64,000 nucleotides of DNA from Isoetes taiwanensis (Eukaryota > Streptophyta > Lycopodiopsida > Isoetales > Isoetaceae): contig JAJEKV010000055.1 in assembly GCA_021234155.1 (NCBI GenBank), forward strand, positions 124,001 to 188,000, read 5' to 3'. The translations under genes were made by a program, and so were the position numbers. Under the pieces are notes generated by a model. The model was given only the letters and a program-made list of their open reading frames with translations, did not search any database and was not told the origin of the DNA. Position 1 is the stretch's first letter. Each line of letters begins with the position of its first letter. Positions 1,476 to 24,050 of the stretch are shown here, in pieces.

Positions 1476-2623
1476 CTAGAAATTCTTGCTAGTCTTCTCC
1501 TTTAGCCTGCACCTGGATTTTATCACGCTTCTTTCAGCTCCACTATCTATGACAAATAGATTATCATCATCCTTAGAAGTTCTTTCAGAAACAGAAAAGA
1601 TTTTTGGATTGCTTACCTCTGCATTTTTGTCCATTTCCTCTTCAACCTCCTCATCTTGTGCTTCTCTAGTTATGTTTATAGCAGATGCTCTTCCTTTGCC
1701 TTTGTTCCTAAAATTTCCTCTTCCCCTTGAGTTATTGCCTCGGGTATTATACCCTCTGCCCCTAGCATTCATCCCTCTTCCTCTACCCTTTTCTTGATCC
1801 CTTGGGCTGGAACAATTTGCAGCTACATGACCATAACCTTGACAATTAAAGCATCTATTTTCCTTTGGCAGTTTAGGACAGTTAGCCTTAATGTGGCCTT
1901 CTAAATTGCAATAAAAGCATGGACCTACTCGGCCTCTTCCCCCAGCATAGAGTATTTCATTATTTTCATCACTCTCTTTTTTTACTTTCCTTTGCTCTAT
2001 ATACATCACGAAGCATATTTTCAGCTTTTATTCCTTGTCTTAGTAACATTTCTTATTAATTTTGTGATTTGCTCATTAGAGGAAACGGCTTTCGGGCTAT
2101 GGATAGCGCTTTGATACCTTTCATTTATGACAACTCGGCTCCATCTAAATCAGCTATGATGTTGTCAAATTTATTAAAAAGTCGACCCGTCATCATCCTC
2201 ATGAAGCGTTAGATTCTTAGTTTGGTTTCAAAACATCAATTTGTGAAGGCGTTTTGGCCTCATAATTTTAAGCAAATAGCTCCACGTCGCCTAGGTGTCT
2301 TACCTCTCGGCATGAGCATGATAGTTGGTCAAGTTTGTCGCAAATAATGCCTTTGGCCTCCTTTTATTTTGGCAATTAAATTGTTGTTGCATTTCTTTGA
2401 GCTCCCTTCTCCACTACATGACCCCCTCCTCTAACTCTATGGTGTTGAACTTGCACCAAGCATCACTTATAGCAGATGTATCACCTGCAATATCCTCACC
2501 TTCATTGGGATCTACAAGTTCCCAAAGATCTTGTACTTCCAGGATATGCATAATCTGATTCTTCCAGATTTGAAATCCTGGTCCTCCTTTATAAACTTCA
2601 ACTGCATTAAGTAGACGCACCAA
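1476..2623 (-). pseudogene. Copia 1 gag with zinc knuckles and protease start
   Basis: The frame 2623-2414 begins MVRLLNAVEVYKGG and matches the N-terminal Copia gag domain. The segment 2410-2010 is broken by stops. The frame 2009-1476 has two CCHC zinc knuckles (CFYCNLEGHIKANC and CFNCQGYGHVAANC), then an Arg/Gly-rich stretch, and ends with the aspartic protease motif VIDSGAERSV. Gag forms the cytoplasmic particle and the knuckles bind RNA. The decay means it is non-functional as read. Confidence 0.88.
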
Positions 2624-2653
2624 ATCTACTAGCCATGATCCTTAACCTGGAGA

Positions 2654-2665
2654 GCTCTGATACCA
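2654..2665 (-). other. Copia 1 primer-binding site
   Basis: The minus strand reads TGGTATCAGAGC five bases downstream of the LTR end. This is the usual initiator-methionine tRNA complement used by plant Copia elements to prime minus-strand DNA. Confidence 0.85.
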
Positions 2666-2670
2666 CTTGT

Positions 2671-2974
2671 TGTTAGTTCAACTATTGAATGCAAGATTTC
2701 TTTGTAATATTCTTCAATCTATAGCAATACTTAATCACCAAGCAAAACAAGGATATTATTCAATCCGTTTAGACAGCTTTACAAAATAACGACCCTAACC
2801 ATTGAAAATCATAATATAACCTTTACTGTAGCTTGGAGATCGAATATAACACTGTAGCACAATTTCCCTTGCTAGTTGAACTGTATAGACGGATCCAACT
2901 CACTGAGAGGTAGATCCACAATCCATAGATGTATATAGCTTAGCAGGTCCGGCGGTTATGGAATCGGTGTATGC
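2671..2974 (-). repeat. Copia 1 5' LTR (part before the hAT insertion)
   Basis: On the minus strand the LTR ends ...CTAACA at 2671, directly next to the primer-binding site. The other end is not visible because a hAT element starts at 2975. The remaining part should begin after 12225, but no second LTR is in the window to confirm its length. Confidence 0.7.
2967..2974. repeat. hAT target-site duplication, left copy
   Basis: GTGTATGC, identical to 12218-12225. An 8-bp duplication is diagnostic of hAT-superfamily insertion. Confidence 0.92.
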
Positions 2975-3212
2975 CAGGGATAGGTTCAATACGCTGTACG
3001 TTTTATACGGAATACGTATGAATTGTATGATACGGCACATATTTGCCGTATAAAACGTAAAGAATACGGCAAAAAAAAAAATTCCGTGTCGGGAAGATTT
3101 TCCGCGTCACTGAAAACAACGTGAAAGCGTCTGTGAAAATTTTTTCGCGTCGATGAAACTGATGAAAACCGCGATCTGTGAACGCATAATTATTATTATT
3201 ATTATTTTTTTT

Positions 3213-3599
3213 TTTTTTTTTTATGTTTATGTGCATGGGCTGGTCTTTTTTAATGAAAGATTTCAATTTTTTGCACTGTGTTCAATATACAGATCACAGT
3301 AATGTATATCCCATTTGGGTGCCAATGGCATGTATTCCTACCTTCACATTTTGCATGGGCTGGTCTTCTTTGATGAAAGGTTCTAAGTTTTGCACTAAGG
3401 GAGCTTTGTACAGATTATAGTAGTGTATATCCCCATGGGTTGAATGAAATAAACTCCTACCTTTACATGTTGGGGTACAATAAAATAAATAATGGCTTAT
3501 GCACTTTAACCATATGTGTTAAAAGTATTAAGTCTAGGGTTTTCTCCCCGTTCCTTTACCTATAACTTAAGTAACAGGCTGATGAGTGGCGCTTGGTTC
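3213..3599 (+). repeat. Left direct repeat of the Penelope-like element
   Basis: It begins with a T run and TTATGTTTATGTGCATGGGC and ends GTGGCGCTTGGTT. It is closely similar to 10293-10679 at a constant offset of 7080 bases. Internally each copy contains a diverged tandem duplication of about 115 bp: both halves start GCATGGGCTGGTCTT and contain TTTTGCACT and a GTATATCCC word. Confidence 0.9.
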
Positions 3600-3894
3600 C
3601 CCGAGCCCATGGCGTGATGTAAGACAAGGCAGTGGCAGGGTCGGATATGGAGATCTGCATACTTACCGTGGCTGGCACATACGGTGAGATCTTCTGACTC
3701 AAGCTAGGTGTTTAGCTTTACCACATTTAGATTTTACGAGCAGATTGATAGGTTCTACCTATAGACTATGGCTTTGACGGCTGGCTTTTATCATATCTGG
3801 CACTTGCTTGCATGCTTAAAACCGTGTGAGCATCACTTCATGAATTTTGTGGGCTGCTATGTACATGGTCCAAGGGCGGGAAAACCTTTACTGA

Positions 3895-4194
3895 AGTGAT
3901 TCAGACGGTTGCCCATACAGTCCTGATAGCAAGACCGTTCTTGAGGAGGAATGGCTTGAGGCGGAATTCCAAGCTTGTCTTGAGGATAATTGGTCTGATA
4001 ACATACACATGGATGCTGGGAGGAACACTGGGATCAAACGTCCTTGGATTAATCATCAGAGCAATGATGCTCACAAACAAATTTATGCTGGAAGGCAGAA
4101 TCGTGACAATGGAAAGCAGGGCAGTTCCAGCTTTAGAAATACAGTCCCAGATACACAGGAAGGGGACAATGAGTTTGAACCCGATGACTCTCAG
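3895..4194 (+). CDS. Upstream exon of ORF1, unrecognised product
   Basis: This is an open frame in phase 1 with no Met at its start. It is preceded by an in-frame TGA and a possible acceptor (ACTGAAG), and it ends CAG before GTTTGATC, a usable donor. The next in-frame material is the exon starting at 6262 after ATTGACAG. Both junctions are phase 0, so splicing out 4195-6261 would fuse the two. The peptide is acidic and polar (WLEAEFQACLEDNWSDN near the start, EGDNEFEPDDSQ at the end) and matches no family I recognise. An overlapping frame, 3896-4237, is also open and is taken as a shadow. The exon structure is inference. Confidence 0.45.
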
Positions 4195-6261
4195 GTTTGA
4201 TCATGCCATGCTTTTAGGAGTTCAACACAGTTTTTAGTGTGTGCTGGTCCCTAATCTATTCTTACAGATTTTATAATTAAACCTAGTTGGTTCAGGATCA
4301 ATCAATACTTCGGTTTGATTTGAATACATTGGTGTTTGACTCCTTATACTTGTTAAGAAGATCACTTCATCGGTTTAATAATTATGTCCTTGATAATCCA
4401 ATTGTTGCAAGATATTACATGGATTTTTAAACATGTTTACATAGGATTGAAAATGTATTTCAATTTGTGAACACTGATTCATTGGTTTTATATTCATATT
4501 TTTTGCTTGGAATGAACTTGAGGGAAAAAGGTAACAATAGGTGACCAGCGATGAGCTGAGAAACCTAATGTACCTTTTGGCCCCTCACTCATTACCAAAT
4601 TCTTGCTAATGTTGTGTTGGTTGGCTGCAGGTACCGGTTTCTCTTCCTATTGTTTCCTTTTTTCGATGTCAAGTTCGTGTCCTGGCTATAATATGGATAA
4701 TATTGGTGGCATCTCTTGCTCTCGCACTCATATGGTGTTTACAAAAGGTTTTATGAAAGGGAAGATTCACTAGCCCGTACTCATTAATATTTTGACTCAA
4801 AGCTCTGGCTGACTAGGAATTCTATGGGATCTTCATATTTCCATGCTTTCTGATTTATATGGCCAGCATTTTGTGATTACTGCTCTGCACAAAAGACTAT
4901 GTTGACAGAGTTCTATGTACTCAAATGTTTCACCTATCTTTACTAAATGAATCCACTGTTTTTCTTACTGCATTCTATGATGTATTTGCATTGGTCATTG
5001 TACTCTATTTAAAGACTGAAATAAGGCTGAAGCTAAGCATTGCTATTCCAGATGTATCATGACTAGATAGGCAGACCACAGTGGTCTTAGAACATCAGGG
5101 TATCAGGGTTTGTGGTTCTACTGCAATACTCCATACAATATGTCAAATAATGGAGTGACGTGCATGTTGATTTTTGGGCTCCATTCCAGGGTCTAAATGC
5201 ATAAAACTTGTCTATGTCTGGTTTAACTCTAAACAGCCATACAAAATGTAATTGTCAATATAACATGGCTGCATGCATATGCTGGGAACTAAAGTGTTGC
5301 CTTATCATTTGGGTCTTCACATGTACTGCTAGTATCTTTACATGTACTGGTATGATGGCTTGCATGCATTGGCTAAGAATTGCATGCATGCAAAGGATGT
5401 GAGTGGCACAGTTTTTGGCATAACAATAGTAAACGGATGTTGTTTTAACAAGTGGTGGGCTAAAGACTTGCATGCATGGTCTTCGGTCTAAAGGGGCTTT
5501 ATTTAAAGTGTAGAACTGAAAGTTACTCTAGTTTTTCTGAGTCTGCAAACACTTATGTCCAATTTTTAACTTTAGTGAAAACTGAAAGATGACCTTTGGG
5601 CTTTTTCAATGTATACACTATAATATTCGATCTTTGTGGAAGTAAAGCTTATGGCCAAAATCTACATGGTCTTAAGATTATGCATTTTACTAAACAGCCA
5701 TATTGGCTCTATGCATGGGATTACTGAGCATATATGGACACATGCACGGGATTACTGGGCATCCAAATTGGCATTATGCATGGGATTATGTAAAATATGT
5801 GGTTGCATTTGGCACTGGCTTTCTGTTATTACCCTAGTATATCAGGGGCAAATAATATAGATAGAACTTGGCTATGTTTATGGAATAGGATTCTCAACTA
5901 ACAGTTGACCAATGGTCCCATGACCTGTTCATTCTTTATCTGTACTATGGGATAGATAAGTGAGTGTTATGATCTAAGTACTTGGTGTTCCATGGCGGAT
6001 AGTGTCATCATGGATTTCGATCCTAGTATGAACTGATAAGACTGCATAAGGGATTGACCTGTGTTGATGTCACTACTAGTTGGTTGATGCCATGGCTAGT
6101 GTGGACTGGATTTTTTTAGGAACTTCAGTTCCCTGGTTTTACCAGGGTCACTTCTACCTAGAAATCAAGTATTTAGCTCAAAAACATGACTGTATCCTGA
6201 TAAATTGCATTTCTCTATTGATGCCTTGTGAACTAATGGCTTATTTATCAATGATTGACAG
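4195..6261 (+). other. Probable intron or non-coding spacer within the Penelope-like element
   Basis: About 2.07 kb of T-rich DNA with no long open frame lies between a plausible donor (CAG/GTTTGA) and a plausible acceptor (ATTGACAG). It contains many TTGCATGCATG words (about 5250-5480) and a loose repeat of GCATGGGATTA (5712-5790). No second gene is visible. Confidence 0.45.
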
Positions 6262-7800
6262 GAAAGAGAAGTAGTATACGAGATTACCCTACCCACTTGG
6301 AACAATGAATTAGCGGCTATAGGGTACAATTACTTCAAATCTGAAGTGCCAAGCTATGCTGTTCAGAGTCTACTGTGCTGCATTAAAGATATCAAGGCGC
6401 ACGAGTATATCATACAAAAAGAAGTTGCCAGAGGGACAGAACAGTACTCGGCCCTATTGCATCTAGGGTTTAATCAATGGATTAAAGCATTCTCCAGCAT
6501 CAATAAGGCTGGAAACGAAGTTGATAAAATTGTCAAAGTCATTGACGAACTGTATAACAGCCTACCTGACCTGATCTATCAGTGGACAGTTGAGGAGGAT
6601 CGATGCAAAATCCAATATCTGACTGGAATTAAAGCCTTGGAGAAGGCCAACAGTATCAAGAGGGAAGTTAAGGCAAAGGATGACATTTTTATCTGTGACG
6701 AGGTTATGGATGATGATCCCTTTGACTCTATACTGTCTGAACAGGATAAAGAAAACCTGAAAGCCAACAACAAGACTAATGATGAGGATGAGGATGGGAA
6801 TGGGGCATTTGACTTCACCTTAAACAATTGCCTGAACTTCCCTGTCATTCCTGAACGATTGGTTGAGAATCATGCGGTTCTATGCAATCAGGGTTTGTGG
6901 AGAACCAAGAATTTTGGGGCCCTAGCCCCGATCAGCAGGGATACGTGGATTTTACTTGGGGGCCTTACAAAGGATCAGGTTAATGCCACATATAGTGCAG
7001 ACCTGTCACTGGAAAAATTTGTCAGAAAGGAAGAAATCTTGTGCAGCATAGACACAAGATTCTTTGATAAGGTCTGCACAAAAAGTCCATACATGTATAT
7101 GGGCCAGAAAGGCCACATGGCATATCCAAACATTGACAGGAATGACTTTTACCTTAAGAGGATATGGAGAACATTCTGCCCCTATTTTAAGTGTGTATGC
7201 GATGATAGAGGAAAAAAGAAGACTAAAAAAACCACATGTGGTGACAACATGACCTGGCTGGATCACGGAGTGTGGTACATGTTCAATAATTTAGATTTGA
7301 TCTACCCTAACATGTCTACTGCAGCTCAAGTGGTTACTTTTAGAGGATTCCTTAGGGGTCCCCTTAAAACCAGTATCATGGGGTTTATTTCCTACCTACA
7401 GGTCAGGGAGGTGCTGATCCAAATGACAATGAAACTTGCTGCAGATCCATGGTCTGACCTTAAGATTGGTCTGCCTAGATGCAAGATGGTGGACATATGT
7501 GAGAAGACCATCAAACCAGTCACACATCTGAAAGATGCAGGGGCTTCTGCCAGCTATAATTCCAGCAGACTCAGTAGCAGGAGTGCATCTAATCCAACCA
7601 GCACTGTGCAGAACGTGGTTGTACGCACACCAAGAATTATGACCAAACCAATGAGTGAGACACCAGCTATGTCTGATAGTGCCTCAGTTGAATGCATTGG
7701 TACACAAGTCCCTGCCGGATACTCCGTCACCAAGGACAGAACCACACATGTACGTGCCAGAGACGTGGCTGCTGGGGAAGAACTACGATACCCAGCCTGA
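6262..7800 (+). CDS. ORF1 of the Penelope-like element, unrecognised protein
   Basis: The frame is open from the acceptor at 6262 (first residues EREVVYEITLPTWNN) to TGA at 7800, 512 residues, with no Met needed at its start if it is an internal exon. The N-terminal third is helical and charged (KAHEYIIQKEVARG). An acidic spacer follows (DEDEDGNG). The central part is rich in aromatic residues and Cys (FCPYFKCVCDDRGKKK, TWLDHGVWYMFNN). The last 90 residues are Ser/Thr-rich and basic and look disordered. I do not recognise a domain. There is no GIY-YIG motif, no CCHC knuckle and no esterase motif. Its length, lack of stops and position before the reverse transcriptase suggest an element-encoded accessory protein, possibly nucleic-acid binding. 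Confidence 0.6.
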   Translation, partial: EREVVYEITLPTWNNELAAIGYNYFKSEVPSYAVQSLLCCIKDIKAHEYIIQKEVARGTEQYSALLHLGFNQWIKAFSSINKAGNEVDKIVKVIDELYNSLPDLIYQWTVEEDRCKIQYLTGIKALEKANSIKREVKAKDDIFICDEVMDDDPFDSILSEQDKENLKANNKTNDEDEDGNGAFDFTLNNCLNFPVIPERLVENHAVLCNQGLWRTKNFGALAPISRDTWILLGGLTKDQVNATYSADLSLEKFVRKEEILCSIDTRFFDKVCTKSPYMYMGQKGHMAYPNIDRNDFYLKRIWRTFCPYFKCVCDDRGKKKTKKTTCGDNMTWLDHGVWYMFNNLDLIYPNMSTAAQVVTFRGFLRGPLKTSIMGFISYLQVREVLIQMTMKLAADPWSDLKIGLPRCKMVDICEKTIKPVTHLKDAGASASYNSSRLSSRSASNPTSTVQNVVVRTPRIMTKPMSETPAMSDSASVECIGTQVPAGYSVTKDRTTHVRARDVAAGEELRYPA

Positions 7801-8051
7801 AACAAAGGTGTGAATCTATACTTCTTACTGTATTTTGCATTGGCTGTACACTATACTTTTGTCTAAAATAACAGGCTACATTATCATAATTGATGTATAC
7901 CTATGTCTATCTTCTTTTTTAGAAAAAGAAAAAAGTTGCCACTCGGCCCATATATACACCAAAAGTCATATGCCATAGTGTGGCTGGCCAGAGGTCTGGT
8001 TGTATCTAGGTTGTGTTAGTATGTTTAAAATACTTTTGTTGCTGCCTACAG
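7750..8051 (+). other. Possible intron joining ORF1 to the reverse transcriptase
   Basis: A GTACGT donor follows codon CAT (7747-7749) in the ORF1 frame. CTGCCTACAG ends at 8051 directly before ATGTCTAAG. Both are phase 0, so removing 302 bases would fuse ORF1 to the reverse transcriptase in one protein. The alternative is that ORF1 stops at 7800 and the reverse transcriptase starts at its own ATG. Prediction only. Confidence 0.35.
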
Positions 8052-10124
8052 ATGTCTAAGTTTATCACAATAAACTGTCAAGGGAGATATTCTATCACTG
8101 AATGTGGACCTCGGAATAAAAAGAAAATTGTACACTGCACCTTTCTGTCCAAAATTCAGGACCTCATATGTTTACCCAGAATATTTCATATGGTTGCCCT
8201 CGAATGTTTTGGTGAAGCTGGGACAAACATGATGCTCAATACCATGTTTGGATGGAAATATAGTGAGAATCTTCGTGATATCTGCTATAAACCATTTTAT
8301 ATTTTTGCACAAGATAATGATGTGCCATGCCCCTGCAGCAATCCTAATATGGCCTCTTTTATTGACCCTGATATTGGTCATGTTAGAACCGCCAAGCTAT
8401 CAATTGTAAGAAACAAACTACTTAGAAACCTCTTCAAAAAAGGTCTTAATCATATTCCTGATAAGATGCTGATCATGAGGGAATTTAGAGAGGAAATATC
8501 TAAGGTGTGTGACCTGTTTTTTGATGCACATATCTATTCATACCCTGATATTACGGATGAGGAAAAGGTGATGTTCAAAATGAGAATATTAGATATAGCA
8601 TCTAGCAGGATCAGCATAGCTATCAGCTGCGTGACTGAACCAAAGAAATTTGCTTTAGCTGATCGAGATGTGATCAACAATCTGGAATGGTTGTTTACAA
8701 ACTTCTATATCTCTGGGGTGGATAAAGCCACCAACAATCCGGCCTTTATCTGCCCACAACATGTCAGGGAAATGGCCATCAAGAGGCTGAACAGTCATGA
8801 CTTTCAGATTATTCTCAACCCACACAAGGAGATCCAATGTCTAATCAAGGAGGATATACAAAACATTATGGGATGTATTGGCTGTGAATCAGAAAGATTA
8901 CCATACCTACTCGGGGTGTATAAGGCCCATAAGAGGGACTATAGGTGGATTACTAACGCCCATAATACAATTTACACAGAGATATCAGAAATTATCACTG
9001 CTGGTCTTAATGATATATTATCTAACTGGCCAGAGATAGCCAAAATGCTAAGTGCTAGTGTACACACCATGCTCCCAGGTAAAGTGAATTCCTGCTGGGT
9101 GGTTAATTCAGTATATGATGTTGTGGTTAATCTTCCATCCAGTATTCATGACCTATTTGTTGCGGACATAACTAAATGTTATGAGAACATCCCACTACTC
9201 GGAGACAATGGAATCTGCAGAATTATTGAATTGGTCTGCATGGCTGCTTGGAAATGGCAAAAAGGCTTACACCATAACAATGAATTATGGATTAAGAAGT
9301 CCTCCAATGGCTACATTGCCAAATGGTTTAAAACTGAACCAAAGGGAAGATGCTGGTCCAAAATGGGGCTAACTGTTTTCATTAAAGCTAACCATTGGCT
9401 GCTTTCCAACTGTTTTATAGCTATGGGCAGCCGGACGTGGCTGCAGGTATGTGGAATCCCCATGGGATTTTCATGCAGCCCAAGCTGGTGCAATTTGTAC
9501 CTTGCATGGTTCGAGGTTGATTTTATCAAGAAGCTGGCCTTGCATGGTAGATACAAGGAGATCAGTATGTTCAAACATACATTCCGATATATTGATGACC
9601 TGCTTGCCATTAATTGCCCCACTATTCGGGAATTTCTGAGTACTACCCCAAAGGAGTTTGGCCATAATCTGAATATTTACGACATGAGCAAACTTGGCAT
9701 CAAGGAAGAAACAGTATTTCACTACAGATATGGGGAAAGCAGCCCACGTAGCCATATGGTTAACTTCCTAAATCTACGTATTGAAATTGTCAACAATGGC
9801 AGCGGAGTATATAGGTATACCAGGTATGATAAGAGGGATATTCTACCTTTTACAGCGTTAAAGTTTGTACATGCTGATAGCTGCAGGCCTTATTTACAAG
9901 CCAGAAACGTAATAGTTTCCCAAATCTTACCATACATGTATGTCAACTCATGTCCATTCAAAGCTGCTGCTGACATTAGAGATCTGATTGTTTGTTTCAA
10001 CAATAACGGCTTTGACATCCTTGGCATGAAGAGGAAAATCACAGGCTATATACAAGATAACTCCTTTCCAGGACTCAAGTTTGACAAGTTTATCTTGATA
10101 CAAGAAATTAATGCGAGTGCATAA
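8052..10124 (+). CDS. Penelope-like reverse transcriptase, apparently without endonuclease
   Basis: This is a 690-residue intact frame. The ATG at 8052 is preferred because a splice-acceptor-like CTGCCTACAG abuts it; the frame is also open to an ATG at 8013. In order, counting from 8013: a DKATNN segment (about 8730) matching the conserved DK region before Penelope fingers; VYKAHKRDYRW (about residue 302); motif A ADITKCYENIP with Asp385; motif B GIPMGFSCSPSWCNLYL from 481; motif C YIDD at 526-529; FLNLRIEI at 585 (the family's FLD-like motif); then a C-terminal helical region. All three catalytic aspartates are present. No GIY-YIG or other nuclease follows. Distance from telomerase or cellular rvt genes cannot be judged without alignment. 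Confidence 0.8.
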   Translation: MSKFITINCQGRYSITECGPRNKKKIVHCTFLSKIQDLICLPRIFHMVALECFGEAGTNMMLNTMFGWKYSENLRDICYKPFYIFAQDNDVPCPCSNPNMASFIDPDIGHVRTAKLSIVRNKLLRNLFKKGLNHIPDKMLIMREFREEISKVCDLFFDAHIYSYPDITDEEKVMFKMRILDIASSRISIAISCVTEPKKFALADRDVINNLEWLFTNFYISGVDKATNNPAFICPQHVREMAIKRLNSHDFQIILNPHKEIQCLIKEDIQNIMGCIGCESERLPYLLGVYKAHKRDYRWITNAHNTIYTEISEIITAGLNDILSNWPEIAKMLSASVHTMLPGKVNSCWVVNSVYDVVVNLPSSIHDLFVADITKCYENIPLLGDNGICRIIELVCMAAWKWQKGLHHNNELWIKKSSNGYIAKWFKTEPKGRCWSKMGLTVFIKANHWLLSNCFIAMGSRTWLQVCGIPMGFSCSPSWCNLYLAWFEVDFIKKLALHGRYKEISMFKHTFRYIDDLLAINCPTIREFLSTTPKEFGHNLNIYDMSKLGIKEETVFHYRYGESSPRSHMVNFLNLRIEIVNNGSGVYRYTRYDKRDILPFTALKFVHADSCRPYLQARNVIVSQILPYMYVNSCPFKAAADIRDLIVCFNNNGFDILGMKRKITGYIQDNSFPGLKFDKFILIQEINASA

Positions 10125-10202
10125 GGTATGACTGATTCTACCATCTATTGTCACAATTTTTGATGTGTAGTTTATTGGATAATATATCTAATAGGGTAAG
10201 GT

Positions 10203-10295
10203 GTGGACCCCAGCAGTGCTGGTAGGAGTCCACCCTCCCTACGAGCACATAACAATTTAGCTGGGCCAAACCTATCCTACGGTTGGAGGTAGGTT
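10203..10295 (+). promoter_or_regulatory. Structured 3' region of the Penelope-like element
   Basis: Downstream of the reverse transcriptase stop, GTGGAC (10203-10208) pairs with GTCCAC (10228-10233), enclosing CCAGC (10210-10214) and GCTGG (10218-10222). A second potential stem is AACCTA (10269-10274) with TAGGTT (10290-10295), immediately before the T run of the right repeat. Such stems could be the site where the reverse transcriptase recognises its RNA; this role is inferred. Confidence 0.45.
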
Positions 10296-10679
10296 TTTTT
10301 TTATGTTTATATGCATGGGCTGGTCTTTTTTAATGAAAGATTTCAATTTTTTGCACTAAGGGTGCAACATACAGATCACAGTAATGTATATCCCATTTGG
10401 GTGCCAATGGCATGTATTCCTACCTTCACATTTTGCATGGGCTGGTCTTCTTTGATGAAAGGTTCTAAGTTTTGCACTAAGGGAGCTTTGTACAGATTAC
10501 AGTACGGTATATCCCCATGGGTTGCTAATGAAATAAACTCCTACCTTTACATGTTGGGGTACAATAAAATAAATAATGGCTTATGCACTTTAACCATATG
10601 TGTTAAAAGTATTAAGTCTAGGGTTTTCTCCCGTTCCTTTACCTATAACTCAAGTAAGGGTGATGGTGGCGCTTGGTTC
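10293..10679 (+). repeat. Right direct repeat of the Penelope-like element
   Basis: Near-identical to 3213-3599, including the internal 115-bp duplication, with a few substitutions and small indels (for example CTGATGAGTGGC on the left is GTGATGGTGGC on the right). Similarity stops at CGCTTGGTTC. Confidence 0.9.
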
Positions 10680-10972
10680 TAAATTAGGTGTTTGCTTAAC
10701 GCAGATATTTTTTTGGCGCAGACGCGAAACCTTCAGATCGCGAGACTGTGAAGTATTTTCGGCAGACGCGATGCTGTATTAGCGTCATCAGAAAAAAAAA
10801 AAATTATTATTTTTTTTCTTCACGGATTTTTAAAATTTTTTTTTTTTTTCACTAGTGGGATTCTTACGTATGAGACGTTGCCCAAAATACTTTCGCGTCT
10901 GACGCACTTGAAGATTCAGAAGTCTTTGAGGGAAAAAACAACTTTTTTTTTTTTCGGCGTAATCGTCATCAC

Positions 10973-12003
10973 AGTTTTTTTTTTTTTTTTTGAAGAACTA
11001 TGTCATCAATATATTAAAAGAATGGTAATGTTACAAAGCAAGTGAGGAGGAAGGAGAATCGCCTAAAGAGACAAATGATACCTCGACAATCCACAACAAA
11101 CTCCACAGAAAAACTGCAACTCTACTGGCGTACATAAGGACAACCATCACCATCTACAACACCCAAGAAGTCCATGGAAATGGCAAACTTCCGGCTCTAC
11201 TACTGGGGGAACAACGAAAAGCTTTGAAATAGCTTGTACAACGAAGTCGAGGATGTCGAGAGGTTGCAGTTGAATCCCTTGAAAGATCCACAACCGCTGG
11301 CCTTAAATCAGCCACACCAACCAAACCACGACAGATGCAATTTTTTGTTGCGCCAAAGCGGCCAAGCATGGGGATACACATGAAGCAAAGAATCGGCAAG
11401 GTCAATCTCATTCAAATTGAGCCTAACCCAATCCCAGTTTGAATGCAAGTGAGGGCATAAAACCGACAATGCTCCAGGTCTCCACGATGAAGCCACAACA
11501 AGGGGCGAGAGAGGGCTCACACCGGCCTAAATCGACTGCTAAGGGCATTCACCCCGATACGTTGTGCACCACCGCCTCTTCCTATTCTAACCTTCGGGGG
11601 GTGTGAGCTCCATGTCCACGCCCAAAATGGCGCCATCGAGAACCCTAAGCCGCAGAGACCACTTGTGTTTAAAAGGTGTCATGAATAGCCAAGACCCCGC
11701 GAAGAAGACCGCATCAAAAGCAAGAAGGCACAACATCCGGATGAACCTTCCAAACCGCACCACCACATCATGGCGAGGGACTATAGGTATGTGTAGCGGA
11801 ATAGACCCCGCCACGTGAGTTCCTAGATAGCGGTCCACTCGCCCTCGGAAGCGAGCTCTAAAAAGAACTCCCGCGAAGCTAGGCCGACCACCCCAATACC
11901 AATCCTCCAAAGGTGAGAGCACGGCTGCGCCTCCAACGAACCCTGCGTCAGAGCATGCGCGATGGCGACCAATAGGGCAAGTGCCGTGGGGTAAAGGAAC
12001 CCA
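10973..12003 (-). mobile_element. Poly(A)-tailed retroinsertion (truncated LINE or processed transcript)
   Basis: On the minus strand the sequence ends TTTTAATATATTGATG followed by ACATAGTTCTTC and a run of A (T run at 10975-10991 on plus), which is the 3' end style of plant LINEs or retroposed mRNAs. The body is GC-richer than its surroundings. It holds open frames on the minus strand (12006-11587 and 11520-11154) that match no domain I recognise. The 5' end is uncertain; similar CGGCGTWAT words lie near both ends (about 10957 and 12034), so a target duplication is possible but not established. Confidence 0.5.
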
Positions 12004-12217
12004 CAAGAAAGGAGAAGGCGGTTTTCACCGTTCCGGCGTTATGCGAAAAAAAAACTTTCGCACGCTTTCCGCGGGCTTTCGGCGTCTAAATGCGAATTTT
12101 TTTTGCCCATGTCCGGCGAGGTTTAAATACGTTAAATACATATTTTATTAAAAAATATGTATTTTTTGACTTTATATGTCAGGAATTTGAATTTTGTACG
12201 TACAGAACCTATCCCTG

Positions 12218-12225
12218 GTGTATGC
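12218..12225. repeat. hAT target-site duplication, right copy
   Basis: GTGTATGC, identical to 2967-2974. Both flanks also contain a similar TCCGRCGGTTATG word in the same orientation (about 2948 and 12230), of unclear meaning. Confidence 0.92.
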
Positions 12226-13817
12226 TGAGTCCGACGGTTATGCCTTCACCGACCACTGAACTAGCATGTCATATTTCTATTTGATCCCTTAAATAAGCAA
12301 TGCAAACACTAAAGGCAATTTTAACTTAGCCGTTTAGCCTTTTTAACTTTAGACTTTAACCATTGACATTTAGCCAATATCGTTCAACCTTATGTAACCA
12401 TTGCTAGGTAACCATATGGTTAAGTGTAGAACCCAGCACTGCAGTCTGCTTCCAGGTTATGCAGATCTTGACAAGCTCAAGAATATTGTCTGACAAATCT
12501 ACAACAAAAGCTTTGATGGATGGTAAGTGGTGTGCTTTTCCAGCAGAATCATTGCGTAGGCAACTAGGCAAATCATCACCTAGATTGTTACATATTTCCA
12601 CTATATGCAATGCAAAGAACCTGCTATTTTATGAGCAGTTTACCTTGAAAATCAATCACCTATGGTATCATGGTATACGAGCCATATCTGCAAATACTGA
12701 GGAGATGCAAGAAATGTTATTACAATGATGCCAATATAACTTACCTAGGGATTTTCTCCAAAAAATAGCAAGATATAATCACATCAGAAGTTGTGATGAG
12801 TGGATGACAAATATGGAAACATTTTGCATTAACAAAAGCATTGTGGTGTGAACTGCATCCATAAATAGCCTGCTCAAAATCCATGAACTTATTATGAGAC
12901 GATTTTTAGCAATTGCATGCATGCTATATTTTTGGGGATAACTCAATATTTCCAATGGATGGGAACTAAGGGGCCCATAATAGAGTTGTACCACGAAAAT
13001 GAATGGCATGACATGTGAATATAGGTCTTGGAGAATGTTTTACTATGCTGTGTTCCATTTGAGGTATTTTGAATCATGGATATTGTAATTGCAAGGAGAT
13101 AACTTCCAATTATTTCGTTTGGTATTTGGGGACCATATTTCACGCATGGTTTTGCCTAGATTTCGGGTTTTTTTTGAACGGGTTTGAGCTGCTTACTGGC
13201 GATCGAAGCTAGTGGCCCGAAGATTGCAGTGGTTGTTCATTTCGATTTGAGTTCGCATGTTGCGAATTTCGAAGGAGATGGCTGTGAAGTTAAGGAGCCG
13301 ATTTATTAGGCCATGGATAAGATAGCATGATGGTTTCTAATTTCGGCAGAGCAGGGGCGGGCCTTCTGAGCTAGGCCTGAGCAGAAGCAAGGTCCGATTG
13401 CTTGGTTGCTTGTGGGTTTCAAGTCCCATTCTTTCCCCTTATTGTGTGTGTTTCCAGGTGGGTTGTGTTCTTGGAGAGTGGGCATGAAAACAGATTGTCA
13501 AAGCAGAGCTTTTGGCGATGGGCGCTGCCCGAATGCAAGGGAAATGGAAATGAAGATGTTTTTGGGTTCTGATGAGGTGATTGAGACCTAGTTGCAGGGC
13601 AGCTCTACAGCATGGCTTCTCGGATTCCACAATAGGGTTTTCTCGAGTTTGTGCTACCCAAGTGCTTGTATGTGGTTTACCGGTGAAAGGCAGTTTGTAT
13701 TTGGCTGGGCCTGTGGTCGTATATGGTGGTGGCAATGGTTGGACAATGGTTGCAGGGCGAAATTTGAAGCTGCCTGTGCACCATTGGAAGTGGCGAGTAA
13801 TAATGTTATGGAAGGAG
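12226..13817. other. Gene-free stretch, probably partly the remainder of the Copia 1 LTR
   Basis: No coding region or RNA gene is supported here. The first few hundred bases should be the rest of the LTR interrupted at 2974, but without a second LTR copy this cannot be shown. The part 13140-13800 is GC-richer unique-looking DNA with only short frames. Confidence 0.4.
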
Positions 13818-19747: not shown

Positions 19748-21944
19748 TCTTATATTATAAAGTTATAGCGTAAGTATATCATGAAGCAAACCCTAATTTG
19801 TATGGCTTAGATCATTTGATTGCATCCATAGGCCGTGATTTATTGCACAACTTCCCACTACCGCGATTGGCTATGCTTTGATCTCTTAAGAGGAAAGGGT
19901 AAAGGAAAAGGGAGGAGGAAAGGGGAAAAGTGAAGGGCAAAAAGGCATGGACAAAAGGGAAAGAGGGAAAGGAGAAAAGTAAGGGTAGGGAAGAGAGAAA
20001 AAAAGAAAGGGAGAAAGGGAAGGGAAAAAAGGACACCGAGAAAAGGGAAAGAGGGAAAGGAAGGGAAAAGTGAAAAAGGAAAAGGGTAGGGTGGGTGGAA
20101 AAGGGCATGGGAAAAAGGGAAAGGGAAAAAGGTGGGGGGGTTGGTGTGGGAAGAAAGAGAGGACATTGGGAAAGGGAAAGGGTAAGGGGGGAAAGGGAAA
20201 AGGGAAGGGAAAAGGACAAGAGGAGAAGGAAAAGAGAAAAGGGAAGGAAGAAGGGAAGGGAGCTAAAAAAAAGAAAAAAGGAGGGGGGAAAGGGAAGAGG
20301 AAAAGAAGAAGGCTGAAAAAAGAAGGAAGAGGGAAAGGGTGCGGAAAGGGGAAAAAGGAAAGCATTGGAAAAGAAAGGAAAGTAACATATGAGGAAGAAA
20401 AAGGGCAAGGGAAGAGGGAAAGGGAAAAGGGGAAGAGGAAAAAGGTGAGGAAAGGGAAAACGAGCACGAAAAAAAGAGGAAGAGGAAAATGATGGGGAAA
20501 TGGGAAAGTAAAAAGGAAATGGGAATGGGATAAAGGAAAGAGAAAGGGAAAAGAAAAGAGAGGAAAGGGAAAAGGCACGTGGAAAAGGGAAAGAGAAAAG
20601 AAAAAGGAGGAACGGGAAAAGGGGCGCTTAAAAAGGAAAGGGAAAAAGGGCACGGGAAAAAGAGAAAAAAAGGGAAAGGGTGAGGAAAGGAAAAGCGAAT
20701 CGAAAAGGAAATGAGAGGATAAAAAGGAAAGAGAAAAGGGACTTCCGGAAGAGAAAAAAGGAGGAAAAGGGAAGGAAAATGGGTACGGAAAAAAGGGGAA
20801 GTAGGAAAAAGGGGGGAAAAAGAAAGGCATGGAAAAAGAAAAAAAGGGGAAAAGGAAAAAGAGAAGGAAAGGGAGAATGTGAAGGGCAAAACGGCACCGA
20901 GGAAAAGGAAAGAAAAAAAAAGAGAATGCAAAAAGGGAAGGAAAAAGGCATGGGAAAAAGGGAAAAGGAAAAAGGGAAGGAATAAATGGCTTGGGAAAAG
21001 GGAGAAAAAACGAAAGGGAAAAAAATGAAGGGAAAAGGGCACCATCAAAAGGGGAAGAGGGAAAGGGTGGGAAAAAAGAGGAAAATGGAAGGGAAAAAGG
21101 GAACCGGAAATGGAAAAGGGAAATGAAAAAATAAAAGGGAGGGGGAAAGTGGAAAAAGAACCCGGAAAAAAAAAAGCAAGAGGAAAAGGGGAAGAGGGGA
21201 TAGGGGAAAGGGGAGGGGGAAAGGGCACGAGAAAAAGGGGAAGAGGAAAGGTGAACAAAGGGTAAAAGGAAGCTGAAAAGAGCATGCAAATGGAAGGGAA
21301 AAAAGGCATGGGAAAAGGGGACAGGGGAAAGAAAGAGCAAGAAAATTAGAAAAGAGAAGGAAAGAAAAGTCATGTAGGTGGAAAAGGGAAAGGGAAAAAG
21401 GAAAAATAGAGAGAGGGGGGAAGGGGAAGGAAAGGGTGGGAAAGGAGAAAATGGAAGGGAAAAAAGGAACGAAAAAAGGTTGGGAAAAGAGGAATAGCGA
21501 AATGGGAAAAGAGAAGGGAAAAGGCACGAGGAAAAGGGGCGAAAGAAAGGGAAAAAAGAAGCCAAGAAGAGCATGGAAAAAGGGAAAAAGAAAAGAAAAG
21601 GGAAAGGTGGAAAAAGAGAAAAAAGGAAAGAATCCACGGAAAGGAAAAGGTTTTGAAGAAGGGAAAGGGGGGAAGGGCAACATAGGGGAAACAAGGATGT
21701 GAAAAAAAGAAAAAAAAAAGAAAGAAAGAAAAGGAAGCATGCAAGGAAAATAAAAAAAAAAAGGAAAAAAAAAAGGGAAGTGTGAAAACGAGGAAAAGAA
21801 AAAGAAAAGAGTAAAAGCAAAAGAAAGAATTGTATCGAATATGTTAACAATGGAGTACTTTCGGGTTATTCTCTCATTGCTATTGTGTATCATTTACAGG
21901 GTCTCAGTCAACTTATGCCCAGCAACGCTGGGCACTGTTCCTAG
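19748..21944 (+). mobile_element. Helitron 2 (2.2 kb, purine-rich interior)
   Basis: It starts TCTTATATTATAAAG and ends with the same hairpin as Helitron 1 followed by ACTGTTC and CTAG (21941-21944). The last 36 bases differ from Helitron 1 at only two positions, so they are one family. It is inserted between A (19747) and T (21945), and excision restores the LINE frame. Apart from about 130 bp at the left and 100 bp at the right, the interior is a purine-only-like repeat. Confidence 0.93.
19885..21835 (+). repeat. Two-kilobase polypurine tract (GGGAAAA-type degenerate repeat)
   Basis: Almost every base on the plus strand is A or G, arranged as variants of GGGAAAAGG with occasional GGCAY or CATGG interruptions spaced some tens of bases apart. 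The very long Phe/Pro/Ser/Leu-rich frame on the minus strand (21850-19886) is a by-product of the strand bias and not a gene. The tract could adopt triplex or G-rich structures. Confidence 0.9.
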
Positions 21945-24050
21945 TTAGTTCTAATAGCATAGGGGATGCCTAAAATTTTAGTTTTAGTAGTGGGAGAGAG
22001 GTACATACAACCCAAATGTGTAGCTGCTTGCTCATCCTCATCTTGATGCCTTGAAATAAGCTTGGTCTTGGCAAGGGTTGATTTTGCATCAGAGCACTTG
22101 CCAAAATCTTCTAAAATAGCTTGGGTGTCTTTGAATGGAGTGTGCTTCCAAATGAAGAAAGAGAAAAGTGTCATCGCAAAGTGAACATTTAAGATTTCTC
22201 CAGCCTCCTGGGAGGGAAGGCTAAGACCTTTAATTAGATGTAAATCCTTAGCTCTCTTAAAATGGCTATTCAGGCCTTCCATTACAATTAGGAAGAGTAA
22301 GGGTGCAAGGGGGCAACCCTGCTTAACCCCCCTTTTAATGTCAAAGAAAGGGCTACATTCCCCATTAATGAGAACAGCAGATCTAGAGTTGCTAAGAATG
22401 GCTTGAAAACCAAAATGACACTATCGGAGAAACCAAGTTTTTGCAAAAGACCAGCAAAGGAAAGCCCAACTCCATCGTGTCAAAGGCCTTTGTAATATCC
22501 AATTTGAGGAGGCCAATTGATTGGTTAGAATCCTGGCCCAAGAGATTCCTAAAGAAGCAAAGAACAACATTATCTAGAATATCCCGGCCTCTTAAATAGG
22601 CACTTTGAGTGTTGCTGATGACTTCTTCAAGGATGGGCTTGAGTCGGAAAAGAATGGTACCGTAATTAACTTATAAACCACATTGGTTAGGGAAATAGGT
22701 CTATAATCGAAAATGTAACCGGGAGTTCAATCTTTGGGATGAGAGCAATCGGGACTTGTGTTGATCCCGCGGTCCCCTTCTTAGTCATCAAAAATTCATT
22801 AGCAAGGGATACAATATCCATACCCAGAATATCCCATGATTTCTTGAAGAATTCAGCTGGAAGACCATCAGGGCCTGGAGTTTTACCATTTTCCATTCCC
22901 TGAAGAACCTTCAGCATTTCCTCATAACTAAAAGGCCTAGAAAGTCTGTCATTCATCAGATCAGTAACTTTTTCCTGGATACACACAAAATTCTCGATAT
23001 CTTCCCTTCTAATATTTTCCTCAGTTCCCATAATCCTGGAGAAATGAGTTTTGGCAGCACTCTTGAGCTGCATATCATTGTCAATGCTATTGCCTTCCCA
23101 AAGAATACTGTAAATGTGATTTCTCTTAACCATGCCCTTGGCTTTGATGAAGAAATATTTCGAATTGCTTCTCTCGTCTTCTTTAAGCTCCTTAACCTTT
23201 GCTTTAATTTTCCAGCCTTTGGCAATTCTGATCTTTTCTCTTTCTATTTGAAGTTTGATTTCATCTCTGTGCTGATCCTGGGCTACATCCAACTGGGATC
23301 TCCAATCCTGTAAATGAGCAGTGTTACTTCTATGAACTTCCTTTCCCCAAACCTTGAGCCAATTCTTGATTCTTTTGGACACCCTCACCCACCAATCCAT
23401 CCAGCCTGTGTTACCATTAGGTTTTCTCTCTTGAGACACAATCTGTTACAGATTAGGCAAAAAATCATCAAGCTCAAGAAGATTAGTATTGAGTTTAAAA
23501 AAAGAATTTCTCTTTCTTTGAGCAGTGTTTCCACAAATATTAATGAGCTGAGGAAAATGATCAGAAATAGTATAGTTGGTTAAATTAGTGACCCTAGTGC
23601 TATTGTTCCAGAGGGCCTCACTGAGATAAAATCTATCATGAAGGCAGCAGACAGGCTGATCCCTGTGGTCACTCCAACTATAAGAGTGGGGGGTAACTCT
23701 AGCTAGAGAGAGATGATGAGAGTAAAGGAGAGAATTCCAGCTAGCAAATTCATTATCAGTCAGGGGCCTAAAATTGGTACTTCTCATATAGCTATGGGTG
23801 ACCATGTTGAAATCTCCTGCTAAAATACACTCATCATAAGGAATTCTCTCTAGACTCCTTTTAATGACCTCCCAAAGGCCGACTCTTTCTGGGGGCTGAT
23901 GATAAGCATAAACATTGATAAAAGCAATCCTCTTGTCACCAGCCATCCCATGAATAATTTGCCATCTCTTGCTGTTATCATTTACCATCTGAGTGTCAGC
24001 AAAGTTAAGCCTGTTACTCCAAGCTATAGTAATTCCTGCAGAAGTGTTGT
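21945..24050 (-). pseudogene. LINE ORF2: endonuclease and reverse transcriptase core
   Basis: In the minus direction the segment first encodes an apurinic-like endonuclease (23988-23446) with GDFNMV and the SDH catalytic motif near its end. The linker and reverse transcriptase fingers follow (23439-22687) with NGKTPGPDGLPAEFFKKSWD, the plant L1 signature. The palm is frameshifted. In 22282-21941 the FADD box appears degraded to HFAMT, followed by LGIPYAIRTN, where Helitron 2 begins. Several stops are present. The protein would nick target DNA and reverse-transcribe the LINE RNA; this copy is inactive. Confidence 0.92.

Follow-up and report, generated by a model that had tools for sequence, protein, structure and literature searches.

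The window analysed here is a 64,000-nucleotide stretch of the Isoetes taiwanensis genome. It carries on its forward strand a Penelope-like element (PLE) in which a reverse transcriptase (RT) reading frame follows a second reading frame, ORF1, between direct repeats. The features, in window positions, are as follows.

3205 to 3222, + strand: T18 tract at the 5' junction of the insertion; the same sequence is preceded by T13 to T44 in seven other copies
3223 to 3598, + strand: left terminal direct repeat, part of the leader, from repeat comparison; a terminal repeat of about 2.9 kb in the copy L009+L041
3897 to 4194, + strand: ORF1 exon 1, about 100 codons, from tblastn and a conserved donor CAG^GT at 4195
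4195 to 6261, + strand: putative ORF1 intron of 2,067 nt containing blocks A and B, proposed from donor and AG acceptor in the sequence only
4515 to 4686, + strand: block A, conserved structured RNA, from its single-sequence fold (z -4.3) and paired cells
5996 to 6176 (about), + strand: block B, conserved structured RNA around U7, from covariation
6111 to 6117, + strand: U7 run, putative template or priming site and 3' end of insertions; matches end at 6117
6262 to 7800, + strand: ORF1 exon 2, 512 codons and stop; open stretch 6262 to 7797 behind a splice-acceptor-like AG
8052 to 10124, + strand: RT exon or reading frame, 690 codons, behind a putative second intron from about 7808; from the open frame, motifs and RVT_1
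10195 to 10293, + strand: conserved 3' region up to the unit junction, from nucleotide conservation between families
10294 to 10302, + strand: unit-junction T9; of the 15 junctions located, 12 have T8
10303 to 10679, + strand: right terminal direct repeat, truncated in the window copy, from repeat comparison

The surroundings are rich in other mobile DNA. Searching with the right flank for an empty insertion site returned instead a dispersed repeat of about 1.04 kb at 10975 to 12017, with T17 before it and 39 other scored matches of 80-83% identity (of 4,348 candidates); unclassified as it is, this is probably a minus-strand LINE or retroposon beside the element. A 34-nt inverted repeat (2960-2993 and 12199-12232, 76% complementary) encloses the whole nest, and element and dispersed repeat may together lie inside an older inverted-repeat transposon. 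On the left, 91-2009 holds minus-strand retrotransposon pieces, which we take to be copia-like, with a Pfam integrase core and SH3-like domain at 91-1101 and a zinc-knuckle-like reading frame, judged by eye, at 1476-2009 on the minus strand. Further right, one strand is strongly purine-rich for about 2 kb (19894-21826), with a GC skew of 0.75 and an AT skew of 0.74 over 20001-22000.

The RT frame is stop-free from 8013 or 8052 to 10124 and carries ADIT, GIPMG, YIDD, DKATNN and FLNLRI, all at the places given for them in the preliminary description; the catalytic Asp of ADIT is residue 372 counted from 8052 and 385 counted from 8013. Pfam RVT_1 was found in all nine RTs scanned (best E-value 1.5e-5), the window RT matching at E 2.7e-5 and 24.4 bits, under the Pfam cut-off of 29.6. 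DKATNN, KAHK..RWIT and FLNL resemble PLE motifs. Class membership is assigned from these motifs and from the architecture described below, the Pfam match being a sub-threshold one to RVT_1, and the enzyme is therefore called PLE-like. No group II intron or bacterial RT model matched over its cut-off; one general RT match was weak (23.7 bits, model with no stated cut-off). Pfam identified no telomerase RNA-binding domain in the RT. In the PDB, neither the RT itself nor profiles of the RT and of ORF1 had a credible match, and a search of viral contigs found no RT relatives. AlphaFold2 models of the window RT and ORF1, each predicted singly, had mean pLDDT values of 31-33 and were not used.

ORF1 is probably longer than first thought. 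The preliminary description had noted a spliced-looking 512-residue frame; the acceptor-like AG before it stands, and a further exon of about 100 codons appears to precede it. The exon 1 peptide has tblastn matches in all 20 genomic loci fetched for comparison (10 kb each; best about 37-98% identical), and a CAG^GTYT donor follows in every copy in which a scripted search located the exon end, 11 of 14. By comparison with L010 and L015, the window copy is without the start-codon segment of this exon. Exon 2 has no ATG start, the AG before it is kept in most of 14 aligned copies, and five other copies are 61-98% identical to it. An in-phase CAG^GT donor and AG acceptor would thus leave the 2,067-nt intron between the two exons. 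All 12 aligned copies have a donor-like GGT downstream of the ORF1 stop, with an AG acceptor at the RT, and donors and acceptors of both putative introns are conserved in genomic copies. The scripted search located the second-intron donor in 7 of 12 copies (not in the window, L009, L011, L015 or L025); in those 7 the spliced RT frame would differ from the ORF1 frame, which hints at frameshifting. This putative second intron (7800-8051) also contains the motif GCCACTCGGC, 9 of whose 10 bases are constant in 12 aligned copies. Pfam, NCBIfam and PDB yielded no credible ORF1 relative, and a further search for relatives yielded none.

The assembly searched comprises 1,658,258,908 bases in 1,110 contigs. 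RT DNA has 42 matches in it (best 40 of 911 candidates scored), in two groups, close copies at 88-97% and a second group at about 69-79%. With RT protein, identity was 53-100% among the 64 scored of 4,771 candidates, many being relatives at 53-60%, and an in-frame stop was absent from 58 of these 64 scored copies. Because the same genome holds these 42 DNA matches and 64 scored protein matches, the window element is not a chance assemblage. ORF1 sequence accompanies the RT in 19 of the 20 fetched loci, several of them degraded; the exception, L016, has just the 3' third of the RT. The genome-wide search for further copies called for earlier thus returned elements with ORF1, rather than RTs devoid of it or of repeats. 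Among stop-free copies, dN/dS is 0.03-0.13 for the RT (7 of 36 pairs, those with unsaturated dS) and 0.08-0.13 for ORF1 (3 of 15 pairs, likewise); these low values support purifying selection on both, selection being one of the two readings, beside recent activity, already offered for the open frames.

The claim that the element encodes no endonuclease also holds for everything scanned. GIY-YIG is absent from the RT and ORF1 exon 2 proteins examined, and of the 121 GIY-YIG matches listed in a six-frame genome search (150 of 263 candidates scored), the one closest to a scored RT copy (64 in all) is still about 37 kb away. These listed matches, none near RTs, are a possible source of nicks in trans.

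The direct repeats at 3213-3598 and 10294-10679 consist of blocks 86-100% identical, with small indels. L009+L041, a copy read to both ends, has terminal repeats of 2.9 kb, the right one reaching the U run of block B. It begins with a 5' T tract and the 2.9-kb leader, in which lie ORF1 exon 1 and the putative intron with blocks A and B; then come ORF1 exon 2, the RT, a unit junction and the second leader, and at the right end the block B U run is followed by a T tract and then host DNA. Measured against this copy, the 387-bp repeats once regarded as the element's ends are real, but they are the remnant of a terminal repeat of about 2.9 kb, and such long repeats behind the short remnant look new. 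The second unit of the window copy breaks off at 10679, before the usual 3' end and not at U7. Other copies have a further unit continuing beyond the right repeat, and the elements therefore form head-to-tail partial tandems, as PLEs do. Together with terminal direct repeats, this bears out the proposed PLE-like architecture, with which the putative introns in DNA would be in keeping, just as the two reading frames and the plant host were rightly recognised. Nucleotide conservation between families extends to about 10301-10311 and then stops; the conserved region before it has a fold z of only -1.9. Inside arrays the unit junction is T8-T9 at 13 of 15 places, with T7 in L026 and T4 in L027.

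Insertions have a fixed 3' end within the leader. When the genome was searched with block B (best 40 of 294 candidates), 18 of the 40 matches stopped exactly at 6117; the other 22 pass it, 15 spanning nearly the whole query and 7 being divergent. The 17-nt end of block B is followed by T of 12 or more at 57 genomic sites and by T of 7 or more at 134, reversed-pattern controls giving 0 in both cases, and 15 of the 18 fixed-end matches are among the 57 (3 lie outside). The unit junction was considered as a second 3' end and rejected, its T8 standing as T12 or longer at a single site, a 57-to-1 contrast that is not normalised to the genome-wide count of junction sites. Inside arrays, 11 of 15 aligned copies have T7 as their block B run, which is T6 in L009, T8 in L025, interrupted in L024 and deleted in L015. 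At insertion ends, the second leader of L009+L041 stops at this run and passes through T33 into host DNA, and that of L020+L042, from another family about 70% alike, likewise stops there. Twenty 3' flanks at 20 places, picked from the 57 sites and thus preselected for T of 12 or more, carry T12-T40. An insertion endpoint fixed at a single base of block B, directly behind U7, looks new.

Block B sites about 2.8-3.6 kb apart occur at C907:11251191-11256790, C224, C49, C90, C952 and C1026; these are perhaps tandem units without a coding region, moved in trans.

The sequence around this end is predicted to fold. Block B has 60 predicted pairs with 97.1% of cells paired. Of these pairs 16 covary, through 54 cells with two-sided changes, where shuffles yield 8 pairs and 17 cells (0 of 500), in a test whose structure was derived from the very alignment tested and in which kinship of the copies inflates the comparison with shuffles. 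The covariation score is 0.230, against at most 0.073 when the structure is slid, and the window's own single-sequence fold has a z of only -2.05. For block A, in contrast, 0 of 200 shuffles fold as well as the single sequence (z -4.3) and 97.7% of cells are paired over 16 copies; 1 of 48 pairs covaries, with 5 covarying cells against 2 in shuffles, and covariation says little here because the sequence is nearly invariant. Rfam searches at E up to 5, over window positions 2600-12600 and six loci, found no known ribozyme or RNA family for either block, and no hammerhead, which is common, if not universal, in PLE terminal repeats. Two conserved RNA folds within a putative ORF1 intron look new. 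Their position there would also suit splicing or regulatory parts of the intron, the shared 3' end then descending from a single truncated master copy that was amplified. That account has little chance of being right: two diverged families share this end, the 57 sites include several block B variants, and the 20 flanks are at 20 places.

T tracts also mark the 5' side. Eight copies, L017 and L018 among them, have unbroken runs of T13-T44; those of L015 and L022 are T-rich and broken by C or G. Where both ends of a copy were read (n=5), the lengths of its two T runs are correlated (Pearson 0.85, p 0.07; rank 0.97). Of these five, C1040 and C1054 span about 16 kb and are perhaps not single insertions, and L017 and L018, with a near-identical 5' flank, look like a duplication. 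On C974, a copy made up of the leader alone is bounded by T27 and T29. The 64-kb window has 10 homopolymer tracts (T or A) at least 12 nt long, one of them the element's own. Two of the 20 3' flanks, L057 and L059, start in the end of one dispersed repeat, whose T12-plus-end pattern, with as many as 3 mismatches allowed, is found 814 times in the genome (0 times for the control); since this repeat's own copies carry the T tract, the tracts at those two insertions belong to the target.

Such tracts could instead be made during insertion. If the element entered DNA at nicks or breaks irrespective of sequence, its RT might generate T at both ends by slipping on the element's U7 and U8. U7 and U8 are slippery runs, terminal T lengths vary, 4 of 15 copies deviate from T7 internally, and the few pairs inspected by eye have no duplicated non-T target sequence. 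We nevertheless think this unlikely, given the correlated T lengths at a copy's two ends (n=5), the steady junction run inside arrays and the two insertions in repeat tails; these two sites, and only these, directly disfavour slippage as a source of T runs.

The same tails raise the matter of LINE machinery moving the element RNA in trans, the T tracts then reflecting a LINE endonuclease's preference for T-rich sites. T-tailed dispersed repeats are common (the 814 sites are unclassified as to LINE status, and the repeat is called LINE-like because of its T tail alone), two insertions lie in such tails, and no endonuclease was detected in the element. LINE priming, however, requires an A tail on the RNA, and the element's plus strand ends in T. 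An antisense RNA would account for T at the 5' end, yet it would leave unexplained why the 3' end is fixed at U7 in a conserved fold, and purifying selection on RT and ORF1 also counts against this route, which we judge quite improbable.

Telomeres were considered as targets and rejected: no telomeric dimers occur in 378,716 bases of fetched loci (some overlapping), including the 20 short 3' flanks. With no telomere association in the loci examined, this is not a typical endonuclease-deficient PLE. The host genome has a gene with a telomerase RNA-binding domain, so the element need not serve telomeres. The lycophyte case described, in Selaginella, is a telomere-associated PLE, as far as the excerpted account goes (PMC12477314). 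TTTAGGG arrays exist in Isoetes (402 overlapping pattern matches), and some copies are 0.1-1 Mb from a contig end, the window copy 0.13 Mb, as might be seen if an ordinary telomere-associated, endonuclease-deficient PLE had later been moved inwards. Other copies, however, lie megabases inside contigs, and with the lack of telomeric dimers at the loci examined we regard such an origin as highly improbable.

Telomerase works by base pairing between a DNA 3' end and a short template inside a structured RNA. The fixed 3' end at U7 within a fold, and the A/T runs at insertion sites, suggest that targets are found by RNA pairing in a telomerase-like way, and we consider it probable that this is an endonuclease-deficient Penelope-like retroelement priming at interstitial oligo(dA) 3' ends. 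The template would be an unspliced RNA that reaches beyond a single unit of a tandem array. Folded block B, with U7 exposed, would be held by the RT or the ORF1 protein, and a host DNA 3' end within a poly(dA) tract, possibly left by replication, repair or another element's nick, would pair with U7. Reverse transcription would begin internally, at U7, proceed through the leader and the upstream unit and halt at the unit-junction U8, after which the cDNA end would rejoin the same A/T tract. The evidence for this priming model is genomic sequence, in which T runs could partly reflect RT slippage. Unlike the telomerase RNA, the Isoetes RNA would be the element itself, copied over kilobases, by an RT in which Pfam finds no telomerase RNA-binding domain.

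Several parts of this scheme have counterparts, described here from excerpts of the sources cited. Endonuclease-deficient PLEs are described as taking their primers from breaks or exposed chromosome ends (PMC3846280). The Terminons (Athena) of bdelloid rotifers and the Selaginella telomeric PLE share with the Isoetes element the lack of an endonuclease, two ORFs and head-to-tail arrays (PMC6431247, PMC12477314, PMC3846280). Because such PLEs are already described, the two-ORF endonuclease-less layout, at first thought possibly undescribed, is not new. Terminons attach via a 3'-terminal hammerhead fold with adjacent telomeric complements (PMC6431247); they too have an RNA fold beside a short complement of the target 3' end, the Terminon fold being 3'-terminal. 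In these accounts, C-rich complements beside a hammerhead face telomeric G-rich overhangs in Terminons and the Selaginella PLE, whereas in Isoetes U7 would face interstitial A/T tracts. The Isoetes fold, unlike the Terminon hammerhead, lies within the putative intron and has no counterpart in Rfam at E up to 5. The Penelope/Poseidon PLE of Anolis also has tandem units, pseudo-LTRs, reverse transcription starting internally in the RNA and an AT-rich preference (PMC11167929). It differs in having a GIY-YIG endonuclease, one ORF and a hammerhead, and its start, an AC-rich stem loop, is not homologous to the target (PMC11167929). The Isoetes element would thus combine an internal start, a short target complement and an adjacent fold, with the target changed and the fold new. 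Literature searches over titles and abstract openings, with the founding PLE papers and the green-lineage PLE paper outside their scope, found no such element described.

The fullest form of this reading is that an endonuclease-free element has its target choice set by a few bases of structured, intron-borne RNA (U7 and block B), uses telomerase-like pairing to insert at interstitial poly(dA) 3' ends, and is related to the telomere-attaching PLEs but re-aimed, having diversified into many families within a single plant genome; taken whole, we hold this to be evenly poised between right and wrong. If it is true, the telomere-attachment mode of endonuclease-free PLEs would be redirectable to other DNA ends by swapping a short RNA stretch, and the spread of an endonuclease-less element through chromosome interiors would be explained. 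The blocks would offer a new structured RNA family for study. The link between retroelements and telomerase would likewise become directly testable, by changing U7 and asking whether the target follows.
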